DNA of 64,000 nucleotides, taken from the NCBI GenBank assembly GCA_014189435.1, contig CP050293.1, positions 4,903,001 through 4,967,000 of the forward strand, read 5' to 3'. The stretch is from Mesorhizobium loti (GTDB lineage Bacteria > Pseudomonadota > Alphaproteobacteria > Rhizobiales > Rhizobiaceae). Both the position numbers and the translations under genes were made by a program. The notes under the pieces were generated by a model that was not told the origin of the DNA, did not search any database, and saw nothing but the letters and a program-made list of their open reading frames with translations. Positions 35,051-63,639 of the stretch are shown here, piece after piece (the stretch's first letter is position 1; each line of letters starts with the position of its first letter).

Positions 35051-35075
35051 AACTGATCGAAAGAGCTAATGTTCC
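35051..35075 (-). promoter_or_regulatory. EcfG-type promoter of the small RNA candidate
   Basis: On the minus strand: GGAAC (35075-35071), 16 bp, AGTT (35054-35051). GGAAC-N16-17-cGTT is the established consensus of the general stress sigma factor EcfG. The bases after GGAAC are ATTAG, as in the promoters at 36199 and 37225. Confidence 0.65.
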
Positions 35076-35131
35076 GTCCGTCTGGCGGTTCATCGTTTTT
35101 GGCTGAATGCCGGAAATGCCCGCACTAAAAT

Positions 35132-35440
35132 TTGCTTGCGATGAACCGACACCAGATTTATTTTAGCGAATGTCATCCGCTGGGAAAGGGCTTTACGGAT
35201 GATGTAAGGGACAAAGCTTTCGCCTGGGTGGGAGGTGTCAGATGCAGTTCCAAACATACTGCCAACCCGGTCCAACTATCCATCCTGACCAGAGCGCTTG
35301 ACCAGCATTGCCAGACCATCGGCATCTCGCATGACAGCCCTGAGCGCGAGAACCTGGCAAGCCGCGTATTCTCGCTCTTCAGCGCCGGCAGGACGACCCT
35401 GGAAGAGTTGAAACAGGCGCTATCGAGAGAAGGATTTTAG
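35132..35440 (+). CDS. small hypothetical protein
   Basis: A 102-residue frame. The C-terminal half is helical and protein-like (LTRALDQHCQTIGISHDSPE, RENLASRVFSLFSAGRTTLE, ELKQAL), a pattern seen in short rhizobial proteins of unknown role. The N-terminal half is less convincing and the true start may be internal. There is no clear ribosome site at the ATG. Confidence 0.5.
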   Translation: MLAMNRHQIYFSECHPLGKGFTDDVRDKAFAWVGGVRCSSKHTANPVQLSILTRALDQHCQTIGISHDSPERENLASRVFSLFSAGRTTLEELKQALSREGF

Positions 35441-35455
35441 AGGCGGTCGTCGGCT

Positions 35456-35626
35456 CTAGGGTTTTCGCTTCAAAATGTGGGCTTCCCGCAAGATGGATGC
35501 CCAATTCTGCGCCCCAATGAAGGCGATAAGCTCGCGGGCTTGGTCTTCCGTGATGCCGGTATCTTCGACAAGTCGGCGCACAACAAGGCTGTTGCCAGCG
35601 TGCGGCTTGCCTTGCTCATCAACCAT
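35456..35626 (-). CDS. small stress-type protein, paralogous to the C-terminus of 37543
   Basis: A 56-residue protein. The ATG at 35626 has GGAAGGG 8 nt upstream; an earlier in-frame ATG at 35659 lies within the EcfG promoter and so upstream of the predicted transcript. The sequence LVEDTGITEDQARELIAFIG and LREAHILKRKP matches the last 40 residues of the protein at 37543 (GITEAQARELINVIG, LLREARILKARQ). The two therefore share a small helical domain of unknown function. Confidence 0.65.
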   Translation of the reverse strand: MVDEQGKPHAGNSLVVRRLVEDTGITEDQARELIAFIGAQNWASILREAHILKRKP

Positions 35627-35650
35627 TCGGATGTCCCTTCCGTGCGACCC

Positions 35651-35675
35651 AACGGGCATAGCAGAGAAAGGTTCC
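35651..35675 (-). promoter_or_regulatory. EcfG-type promoter of 35626 gene
   Basis: Minus strand: GGAAC (35675-35671), 16 bp, CGTT (35654-35651), a perfect consensus match. The predicted transcript start near 35643 lies 17 nt before the ATG at 35626 and decides that start. Confidence 0.75.
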
Positions 35676-35716
35676 GCTAGCGCTACCTAGCCTTAGGCGG
35701 CTGCGGCAGCAACCGC

Positions 35717-35890
35717 GTCGGATCGATCAACGCGCTAAGATGTTTCGTAATGACGGCCGTGGTAGCCCAGCACAACGACCTCCTCCCCTTCGGATGGACC
35801 GGGGTCTGGTTGTTTTTCGTCATCTCCGGCTACGTCGTGACCCTTGCGATGGTCGGCCGACAGTCTTCACGGCTGGCTGGGGTTACCCTA
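35717..35890 (+). pseudogene. acyltransferase_3-type fragment
   Basis: The frame reads SINALRCFVMTAVVAQHND, LLPFGWTGVWLFFVISGYVV and TLAMVGRQSSRLAG. G-W-x-G-V-x-LFFVISGY is the signature of the first two helices of acyltransferase_3 (OafA/NodX-like) membrane proteins. Only about 58 codons remain of the usual 350, without the rest of the helices. Confidence 0.6.
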
Positions 35891-60846: not shown

Positions 60847-61115
60847 AGTTCTATGCGGCAAAGCGCATCGCTCTTCCGTAGTTTGAACACTTTCCCCACG
60901 ATCGGTAGGTTCGCGCGCTCCAGCAACGTCGTTCTGTCACATGTACTGCCTGTTATGATTGCTCCTCGACAGGACGATGCAACCGCACATCGGCTTTTTG
61001 CTCGCCACCCCGAAACCTCTTGCCAGTCTCGGCGGAGTTAATCAGCGACCGTGGGGAACCGCTTGCCAGACACAGCATTGTGACGAGATGCGATCCCACA
61101 TTCAAGGAACACATC

Positions 61116-63230
61116 ATGGCAAAGTCCCCTCGCCGTACCGTCGGCAACCAAGCCGTCATACATGACCAGGCTTTGATCCGTGGGCTAGGCGGCGAACTTC
61201 ACCAGACGGCCGAAGGCGATATTCCGGTGTTGACCACCGCCCAGGGCGGCCCGGTGTCGGATGACCAGAACTCGCTGAAGATCGGCGCACGCGGGCCGAC
61301 CGTCCTCGAAGACTTCCATTTCCGCGAGAAGATCTTTCACTTCGACCACGAGCGCATCCCCGAGCGCGTCGTCCATGCACGTGGCTACGGCGCCCACGGT
61401 TATTTCGAGACCTATGAATCGCTGGCCAAATACACCCGCGCCGATATCTTCCAGCGCGCCGGTGAAAAGACGCCGGCCTTCGTGCGCTTCTCCACCGTCG
61501 CCGGCAGCAAGGGATCGGCGGATCTGGCGCGCGACGTGCGTGGCTTTGCCGTCAAGCTCTACACGCAGGAAGGCAATTGGGACATTGTCGGCAACAACAT
61601 CCCGGTCTTCTTCATCCAGGATGCCATCAAGTTTCCCGACCTCGTCCATTCGGTCAAGGAAGAGCCCGACCGTGCCTTTCCACAGGCCCAGTCGGCGCAT
61701 GACAATTTCTGGGATTTCATCTCGCTCACCCCCGAAAGCATGCACATGATCATGTGGGTGATGTCGGATCGGGCCATCCCGCGCTCCTTGCGCTTCATGG
61801 AGGGTTTCGGCGTCCACACCTTCCGGATGGTCAATGCCAAGGACGAATCCACCTTCGTCAAATTTCACTGGAAGCCGAAGCTCGGCATGCAGTCGGTGGC
61901 CTGGAACGAGGCGGTGAAGATCAACGGTGCCGATCCGGATTTCCATCGCCGCGACCTTTGGGATTCGATCCAGGCCGGCAATTTTCCGGAGTGGGAGCTC
62001 CAGCTGCAACTGTTCGATCAGGCGTTTGCCGACAGCTTCGATTTCGACGTGCTCGACGCCACCAAGCTGATCCCCGAGGAAATCCTGGCGCCGATCCCGG
62101 TCGGTCGCCTGGTGCTTGACCGCATGCCCGACAATTTCTTCGCCGAGACCGAGCAGGTCGCGTTCATGACCCAGAATGTCCCACCCGGCATCGATTTCTC
62201 CAACGACCCGCTGCTGCAGGGACGGAATTTTTCCTATCTGGATACGCAGCTGAAGCGGCTCGGCGGGCCGAACTTCACGCATATCCCGATCAACGCACCG
62301 AAGTGCCCGTTTCATCATTTCCAGCAGGACGGCCACATGGCCATGCGCAGTCCGGTGGGACGGGTGAACTACCAGCCCAATTCCTTCGGCGAAGGGCCGC
62401 GGGAGTCGCCGCAGCGCGGGTTCCGTTCGTTCGCCGAGCCCGAAGAAGGTCCCAAACAGCGCATTCGCGCCGAGAGCTTTGCCGATCACTACAGCCAGGC
62501 ACGGCAGTTCTACATCAGCCAGACACCGACGGAGCAAGGACACATCGCGGCTGCCCTGACCTTCGAACTCAGCAAGGTGAAAACGCCGGTCATTCGCGAA
62601 CGGATGGTGGCGCACCTTCTCAACATCGATGATGGGCTTGCCAAAAAAGTTGCTGCCGATCTTGGATTGAAGACGATGCCAAAACCCGCTGATGCGGCAG
62701 TCGCCACCCGCCAGGATCTTGGCGCCGCGCCATCGCTCAGCATCCTGGAAAACGGGGCTCACCAGTTCAAGGGCCGCAAGCTCGGCATCCTCGTCACCGA
62801 CGGTACCGACGCCGCACTGCTGAAGGCACTGACTTCAGCCTTGGCCAAGGCCGGCTCCAGTTTCGAGATTATCGCTCCCAAGGTTGGCGGCGCCAAAGCC
62901 AGCGACGGCAGTTTTATCGAAGCGGATCAGATGCTCGCGGGCGCTCCCTCCGTCCTTTACGATGCGGTGGCGTTGTTGCCCTCGCAGGCGGCCATCGCCG
63001 ATCTTGTGAAAGAATCGACCGCTCGCGATTTCGTCGCGGATGCTTTTGCGCATTGCAAGTTCATCGGCTACGTCGAAGCGGCAACGCCCCTGTTGGAGAA
63101 GGCGGGCATCGCGGACAGCCTGGACAAGGGCGTCATTTCGTTGTCCGGCCCGAAAGACGTTGCCGGCTTCCTGGGCGAGCTCGGTGAACTGCGCCTGTGG
63201 GGTCGAGAGCCGAAAGTGAAAATGTCGTAA
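61116..63230 (+). CDS. katE: large-subunit (clade 2) catalase HPII
   Basis: A 704-residue catalase; CAAGGAACA precedes the ATG at 61116. The catalytic His is in [19 protein letters not shown], the distal Asn in [15 protein letters not shown], and the haem-ligand Tyr in [18 protein letters not shown]. Residues from about 545 form the flavodoxin/DJ-1-like C-terminal domain typical of clade 2 ([20 protein letters not shown]). It detoxifies hydrogen peroxide in the cytoplasm. Upstream is only a degenerate EcfG-like site (GGAAC-N16-CATT, 61055). Confidence 0.95.
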
Positions 63231-63261
63231 GTCCAGCAGCGCTCCCAAGGTCAGATTCAGT

Positions 63262-63294
63262 CAAAAAAGGACAGGACCGCATTGGACCTGCCCT
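63262..63294 (-). terminator. terminator between katE and the convergent small gene
   Basis: Minus strand: GGGCAGGTCC, loop AATGC, GGTCCTGTCC, then TTTTTTGA (63292-63262). It ends the leftward small gene and, as a stem, may also end katE from the other side. Confidence 0.72.
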
Positions 63295-63341
63295 CTTCCA
63301 GAAGTAAGACGCCCTTATCACACTGTCGGAACGACGAGCTT

Positions 63342-63590
63342 TCAAACGCCTTTGGGAGACGTCGACGCGATTGGCTCTCCGTCCTCGACGGTGTTTTCGT
63401 TAACTTGGAAGGCTTTGCCCTGCAGCTTCGTCCGATTTCGCTTGCTGCTGGAATTCTCGGTTTGCGGCACTTGTAACGGCGCTTGCGATCCGATCGGCTC
63501 TCCGCCTTCAACGCTGTTTTCGTTCACCTGGAAGGCTTTGCCGTGCAGTGTCTGCTTGGTAAAATCGTTCGTTGTGGGCTCTTTCGCCAT
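63342..63590 (-). CDS. small stress-type protein with a duplicated KAFQVNEN motif
   Basis: An 82-residue protein. GGAGGACGAA precedes the ATG at 63590. Two near-identical segments are present: LHGKAFQVNENSVEGGEPIG and LQGKAFQVNENTVEDGEPIA, about 36 residues apart, each preceded by a Thr/Lys-rich piece. No signal or membrane segment. I do not recognise the family. The EcfG-type promoter at 63615 and a terminator at 63262 delimit a single-gene transcript. Confidence 0.72.
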   Translation of the reverse strand: MAKEPTTNDFTKQTLHGKAFQVNENSVEGGEPIGSQAPLQVPQTENSSSKRNRTKLQGKAFQVNENTVEDGEPIASTSPKGV

Positions 63591-63614
63591 TTCGTCCTCC
63601 ATTGCTGGGAGCAC

Positions 63615-63639
63615 AACTCCCGCCATCGCGGCGAGTTCC
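63615..63639 (-). promoter_or_regulatory. EcfG-type promoter of the KAFQVNEN gene
   Basis: Minus strand: GGAAC (63639-63635), 16 bp, AGTT (63618-63615). The predicted start site is about 17 nt before the ATG at 63590. Confidence 0.75.

Follow-up and report, generated by a model that had tools for sequence, protein, structure and literature searches.

Results

Fourteen promoter-like sites with one spacing

The DNA examined here is a 64-kb stretch of the Mesorhizobium loti genome (the window; C1:4903001-4967000, C1 being contig CP050293.1, with genes called by our own script), in which the interval 35051-63639 holds a run of sites resembling promoters read by EcfG, the sigma factor of the general stress response (GSR), three of them directly ahead of small structured RNAs. 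In the established pathway, stress acts through PhyR to release EcfG from NepR, upon which transcription follows, and the EcfG promoter consensus consists of GGAAC, a fixed spacing of 16-17 bases and a CGTT-like -10 element. An earlier note on this interval had listed thirteen such sites, all of which were found at the coordinates and on the strands it gave, with its tally of -10 letters also correct. A fourteenth GGAAC-N17-GTT site, missing from that list, lies on the minus strand at 36331 and ends in TGTT, bringing the set to seven AGTT, five CGTT, one GGTT and one TGTT.

The clearest evidence against a chance origin of the sites comes from their spacing. When the distance between GGAAC and GTT is varied across the interval, N17 gives 14 sites, N12 to N16 give none, and N18, N19, N20, N21 and N22 give 1, 0, 3, 1 and 2, respectively. 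The whole window contains 16 sites, compared to a mean of 1.69 (maximum 7) in 100 dinucleotide shuffles. Across the genome (8,330,599 bases in three contigs) there are 307 sites compared to 396 for a reversed-pattern control, so that the pattern as a whole is not enriched and about one site is expected per interval; at the expected 1.05 or so, the Poisson probability of at least 14 is approximately 9e-12. The earlier estimate of less than one chance occurrence was thus right in substance, if slightly optimistic.

Thirteen of the 14 sites lie outside predicted genes, the other (51554) overlapping a doubtful open reading frame (ORF) of 42 aa. Eleven stand 12-288 nt ahead of an ORF, and three (35051, 36199 and 36331) stand 5-10 nt ahead of a structured RNA. 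The previous description of twelve sites upstream of genes, mostly for small stress-type proteins, therefore holds in part: CsbD, YflT, DUF4142, PRC-barrel, Transgly_assoc and DUF3309 proteins are indeed encoded downstream, but the three sites just named precede small RNAs and not proteins. Given the fixed spacing, the way the sites point at features, and a genome that encodes PhyR, NepR and EcfG, they are likely to be EcfG-type promoters.

Structured RNAs behind three of the sites

There is no convincing ORF near the sites at 35051 and 36199, and directly downstream of each lies a strong hairpin with a short run of T. The three RNAs of the interval, 68-88 nt long and of two types (A and B; Table 1), fold more stably than dinucleotide shuffles of the same segments, with z-scores of -4.27 (34958-35045), -3.49 (36238-36320) and -3.67 (36126-36193) and none of 200 shuffles as low in any case; extending the first to 34940-35050 gives -2.49, with one shuffle in 200 as low. 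Similar segments lie behind sibling promoters elsewhere in the same genome. Type-B-like sequences occur at two other places in this genome and at four named Mesorhizobium loci. At locus L039 (C1 5035778 and 5035909) a type-B and a type-A RNA lie in tandem under separate promoters, with an ORF of the MTDK type next, and at L040 (C1:6646699) a promoter with a spacer dyad (see below) and the start of an RNA are fused to what appears to be the tail of an ORF of the 107-aa type, probably a decayed copy.

We aligned 36 type-A RNAs with their promoters removed, by sequence alone: 8 from this genome (11 RNAs less three of type B) and 28 from named Mesorhizobium records. The latter are 31 picked segments, less L052, L079 and L097 (not of the fold), L060 and L122 (type B) and L088 (a near-copy of L083), plus L093, L102 and L107, added by eye from 11 places earlier set aside. 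The structure, drawn by hand from the alignment and from single-sequence folds, has three hairpins in which 88.9% of cells are paired, a figure that leans toward the structure since this was drawn from the same alignment, and that compares to 37-41% with the partners shifted by 1-3 columns. Cells changed on both sides number 106, compared to 38.6 (sd 6.8) in shuffles, and the covariation score is 0.356 compared to 0.210, with none of 500 shuffles as high. Pairs changed on both sides make up 8 of 10 in hairpin 1, 6 of 8 in hairpin 2 and 2 of 9 in hairpin 3. RNAalifold, applied to the first own-genome alignment, found the terminator only. Related sequences can outscore shuffles without any structure, and for this reason further independent tests were used.

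Linkage of the RNA family to the promoter

For these we built a model, R1, from the RNA alone, leaving the promoters out. Among 55 R1 matches for which upstream DNA was read, 44 are less than 90% identical to any training row and count as held out. Of these, 27 are preceded by an exact GGAAC-N17-GTT whose first base lies 27-31 nt before the RNA (chance about 9e-5 each, from base composition), and 35 by at least seven of the eight promoter bases at a spacing of 16-18. The reverse test starts from the promoter. At 11 Mesorhizobium loci with a dyad promoter that were unused in training, an R1 RNA follows after a gap of 3-6 nt in seven; in L159 the match, the eighth, is instead upstream of the promoter, and the sequence downstream of that promoter resembles type B, and the other three have no R1 match at E<=0.01.

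At E<=0.001 R1 has seven matches in its own genome, and of 41 Mesorhizobium genomes 22 have a match, that one among them. Among 151 genomes drawn from across the family, only its own was matched; among the rows listed, one other genome of the genus gave no match. Both the genus and the family-wide searches used stricter filters with few candidates scored per genome, and absences in them are weak evidence. Rfam 15 left the RNAs unmatched, both in window positions 34000-64000 at E<=1, where the one match was elsewhere, of microRNA type and below cut-off, and in eight relative loci at E<=0.1, where only a tRNA and a ROSE element were found. The latter, a ROSE RNA thermometer, lies in M. mediterraneum (L095:4796-4889), with one of the RNAs about 1.8 kb away. 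The promoters, the fold, the promoter-RNA linkage and the distribution of the family are all results of computation.

A dyad within the promoter spacer

A TTAG-N6-CTAA dyad lies in the spacer of many of the promoters but is not universal. The promoter sub-class was found in 111 named records, 52 of them titled Mesorhizobium. Of 53 Mesorhizobium promoters of the form GGAACATTAGN8AANAGTT, 51 have C at position 17 and 42 have the CTAA needed for the full dyad; the same pattern at 59 sites of other taxa, mostly AT-rich and thus unmatched in composition, has the C in 11 and the full dyad in 2. The training RNAs were found by way of dyad promoters, and R1 accordingly leans toward such promoters. The dyad is absent at 36331 and from L211-L215, and it also fronts ORFs with no RNA, at 37225 in the window and in L112, L076 and L117.

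A control based on the lack of terminators after non-Mesorhizobium sites of the pattern was discarded, since those 59 loci are mostly AT-rich (one above 55% GC), and random Mesorhizobium 144-mers were used instead; a terminator-like segment follows 37 of the 53 dyad sites compared to 47 of 200 such 144-mers. We also rejected the idea of a genome-wide dyad regulon, as only 5 of the 31 places with TTAG-N6-CTAA are EcfG-type spacers and the reversed control occurs 71 times. Two further dyads (C1:1198707-1198720 and C1:7018162-7018175) lie beyond the spacer, at or just after the -10 element of the EcfG-type sites 1198684 and 7018132.

Comparable stretches, core genes and neighbours

The earlier note saw the clustering as special to this interval, a view that a comparison of densities across the genome does not bear out. 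Per 28.6 kb, the number of sites ranges from 8.6 to 17.2 in stretches of C1 at 2495-2535, 4967-5007, 6875-6895 and 7000-7035 kb, the densest part being 2495-2515 kb (17.2), followed by 7020-7035 kb (15.2) and by 6875-6895 and 7000-7020 kb (14.3 each), compared to 14 in the interval. We therefore rejected a single stress island, three other regions being equally dense. Together with the window, 20 stretches of this genome cover 434,006 bases and hold 125 of the 307 sites, and the remaining 7.9 Mb hold 182; the stretches were chosen for clustered sites or paralogues, and the densities thus illustrate and do not test. Several of the site-rich stretches contain paralogues of window genes. Among 29 fetched loci related to the PRC/Transgly stretch, 25 contain one or more exact sites within some 3 kb; the site at 45440 has no exact counterpart in L223-L225.

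NepR has a single match above cut-off in the genome, with a second (C1:150192) below it. PhyR and EcfG adjoin it at C1 ~6.883-6.886 Mb, about 1.9 Mb from the window, and the next best EcfG-like proteins of the genome are 40% and 38% identical. A homopolymer-rich stretch of low complexity between phyR and nepR-ecfG (L041:9347-10091, C1 ~6884346-6885090) looks like an assembly artefact.

Three genes in the window encode HWE or HisKA_2 kinases (32780-34312, 50335-51414 and 56218-58221), which by family are candidate inputs to the stress pathway. Beyond the left edge of the island, 20984-25420 and 25817-27617 carry Trb-type conjugation genes (TrbL, TrbC and a T2SSE-type ATPase) and an HTH-HipA pair. 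Within it, 38680-41384 encodes a DNA-repair-like pair, a DUF4130/uracil-DNA-glycosylase protein and a radical-SAM protein, with no exact EcfG-type site directly ahead.

Table 1. Putative EcfG-type promoters of the interval and the features they precede (window coordinates).
Feature	Position	Strand	Remarks
EcfG-type promoter, dyad-like spacer (GGAACATTAGCTCTTTCGATCAGTT)	35051..35075	-	ahead of RNA 34958-35045
Type-A small RNA, three hairpins, terminator with TTTT	34958..35045	-	R1 55.8 bits; training row
EcfG-type promoter	35651..35675	-	ahead of 56-aa ORF 35456-35626
EcfG-type promoter, dyad-like spacer (GGAACATTAGAGCGTTCAAACAGTT)	36199..36223	-	ahead of type-B RNA
Type-B small RNA, hairpin and strong GC-rich terminator	36126..36193	-	no match to R1
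EcfG-type promoter, TGTT, without TTAG dyad	36331..36355	-	ahead of type-A RNA 36238-36320
Type-A small RNA, outside training set	36238..36320	-	R1 43.8 bits, E 2.2e-4 over 434 kb
EcfG-type promoter, exact TTAG-N6-CTAA dyad	37225..37249	-	directly ahead of ORF, no RNA
107-aa ORF, no Pfam match	36868..37191	-	followed by 36632-36871 (79 aa, DUF768-like below cut-off)
EcfG-type promoter	38056..38080	-	ahead of 37543-37932 (DUF982), 37328-37543 (DUF768)
EcfG-type promoter	43314..43338	-	ahead of 43080-43244 (DUF3309)
EcfG-type promoter	45355..45379	-	ahead of 44398-45264 (PRC-barrel); exact counterpart in L223
EcfG-type promoter	45440..45464	+	ahead of 45507-45758 (Transgly_assoc)
EcfG-type promoter	48467..48491	-	ahead of 47914-48438 (174 aa)
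EcfG-type promoter	51554..51578	+	ahead of BrkB/YihY-type gene (called 51867-52862; ORF open from 51663)
EcfG-type promoter	54055..54079	+	ahead of 54166-54876 (DUF4142), 54897-55499 (YflT)
EcfG-type promoter	60318..60342	-	ahead of 60062-60277 (CsbD)
EcfG-type promoter	63615..63639	-	ahead of 63342-63602 (86 aa, no Pfam match)

Discussion

We read the interval as one of several stress islands rich in EcfG promoters, home to members of a multicopy, genus-restricted family of GSR small RNAs that would act in trans, and put the probability of this reading at roughly 0.7. Upon stress, PhyR would be activated and EcfG freed from NepR, and polymerase carrying EcfG would then read the GGAAC-N17-nGTT promoters, making both the small stress proteins and the copies of a genus-restricted RNA of about 80-100 nt, with three hairpins of which the last is a terminator. 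Transcription by EcfG, action in trans, the choice of targets and the meaning of the spacer dyad are what we infer from these sequences. The RNAs would most likely pair, through C-rich hairpin-1 loops (for instance CCCUCC, CUCCCGG or CACCCC), with Shine-Dalgarno or other G-rich mRNA segments, different paralogues carrying different loops.

The evidence for pairing is the composition of the loops, together with what is described for GsrN. Hairpin-1 loops are 43% C, and among 73 non-redundant RNAs CCUCC occurs in 13 and CUCC in 18, where shuffled loops give 2.0 and 6.8, respectively. These values, taken with the loop pairing of GsrN, favour pairing in trans near ribosome-binding sites. In Caulobacter, GsrN is a GSR small RNA with an EcfG-type promoter and a C-rich 5′ loop that pairs with G-rich mRNA leaders; similar RNAs are predicted across the Alphaproteobacteria, and its homologues typically adjoin the core GSR genes, Caulobacter crescentus itself excepted (PMC5869019). 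The Mesorhizobium RNAs share with GsrN the EcfG-type promoter, found exactly in 27 of the 44 held-out cases, but are multicopy and lie in islands, with no R1 match at E<=1 in L041, the 20 kb around phyR-nepR-ecfG.

Two further groups of RNAs also bear comparison. SmelB126/smB9 of Sinorhizobium is genus-restricted and divergent, with 2-5 copies per strain and a listed promoter of RpoE2, which is of EcfG type (PMC7143759, PMC3927594 and PMC3616915); the Mesorhizobium family, compared by description only, is likewise multicopy, restricted and divergent, but belongs to a different genus. SmelA075 and SmelA099 are present in several copies per genome, with three or four hairpins of variable stem, stress induction and anti-Shine-Dalgarno loops (PMC3927594). 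Several copies (the seven own-genome matches of R1) and three hairpins are common to both families, but the CCUCCUCCC found in each loop of SmelA075/SmelA099 occurs in 0 of 88 Mesorhizobium RNAs. Our reading, based on descriptions of both, is that the type-A family may work like GsrN or SmelB126, with no kinship implied. The promoters themselves have the GGAAC -35, fixed spacing and GTT core of the PhyR-NepR-EcfG regulon, all three genes of which are encoded here, but unlike that regulon many RNA promoters have AGTT in place of CGTT, and a spacer dyad.

The strongest alternative, which we regard as unlikely, is that the RNAs serve mainly as 5′ leaders to small downstream ORFs, either as cis elements or as attenuators, and not as free-standing small RNAs. 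Among 84 loci the ORF after the RNA is of the MNNIIWLVG type in 16, of the MTDK type in 6 and of some other kind in 26, and there is none in 36. The 24-aa MNNIIWLVG-type ORF has a ribosome-binding site and lies within some 25 nt of the RNA, and terminators linked to it have poor U tracts, with 1.1 T per 8 nt compared to 3.6 where no ORF follows; it is these loci that leaders would fit best. However, besides the loci in which the same scan finds no ORF at all, it is doubtful that most of the 26 other ORFs are real, there is more than one kind of linked ORF, and in L112 the same promoter stands ahead of an MNG-type ORF without the RNA. Seven loci from other Mesorhizobium genomes (L196, L198, L200, L207, L210, L216 and L218) have an ORF of 141-143 aa (M[KR][HY]QT...) 45-63 nt after the RNA.

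It is very improbable that the segments are a dispersed repeat of promoter and hairpin, spread by duplication and functionless as RNA. Their multiple copies, the tandem pair, the promoter fused to an ORF tail and the paralogous modules would suit such a repeat, but the compensatory changes in the stems and the fixed distance from promoter to RNA across divergent copies speak against it. Least probable of all is the view of the earlier note that this is merely a cluster of GSR protein genes, which fits the eleven sites ahead of ORFs, several of stress-type families, but not the three ahead of RNAs, nor the comparable clusters elsewhere in the genome.

We take the spacer dyad to be a second control site, through which a subset of the promoters may receive a further input; possibly it reflects a preference of the polymerase or shared descent instead. 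A bolder proposal, to which we would give well under even odds, is that the dyad is the operator of a dedicated regulator, in which case Mesorhizobium would have a genus-specific, expanding set of GSR small RNAs and mini-proteins gated by EcfG and a second signal, with hairpin-1 loops diversifying to give each paralogue its own targets.

Several results weigh against our view of trans-acting RNAs under EcfG promoters and a second control site. For the RNAs themselves, nine of the 44 held-out members lack even a promoter of seven bases in eight, the training row at own-genome position 2531440 is doubtful, scoring 21.5 bits (E 0.64) under R1, and in a first look 19 of the 41 Mesorhizobium genomes gave no match, under the strict filters described above. 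For pairing in trans, CCCC and UCCC are not enriched in the hairpin-1 loops of the 73 RNAs, 55 of the 73 loops have no CUCC, and the loop counts are not independent, the paralogues being related; in about one RNA locus in four the next ORF is recognisably of MNNII or MTDK type, so that some of the RNAs may indeed be leaders. For the dyad, the held-out RNAs, found without reference to a promoter, have TTAG at the dyad position in 19 of 44 cases and the full dyad in 13, and genome-wide the dyad shows no excess (31 compared to 71 for the reversed control).

Though this type of RNA is already known from GsrN, SmelB126 and SmelA075/SmelA099, the Mesorhizobium family itself appears to be a new variant. 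No description of an EcfG-driven RNA family in Mesorhizobium was found in the literature searched, as far as its available text extends. For M. huakuii 7653R, 40 small RNAs have been predicted, of which 16 are regarded as putative novel (PMC5596092), and some of these could be members of the type-A family. If our reading is true, the GSR of Mesorhizobium, whose members are legume symbionts, has a post-transcriptional arm, and a stress role is suggested for the orphan families found in the islands, DUF768, DUF982 and DUF3309. The family could show whether there is room for a second operator in the spacer of a sigma-factor promoter and, being multicopy, so far seen only in Mesorhizobium and findable with one model, it would allow the diversification of small RNAs by duplication to be watched.

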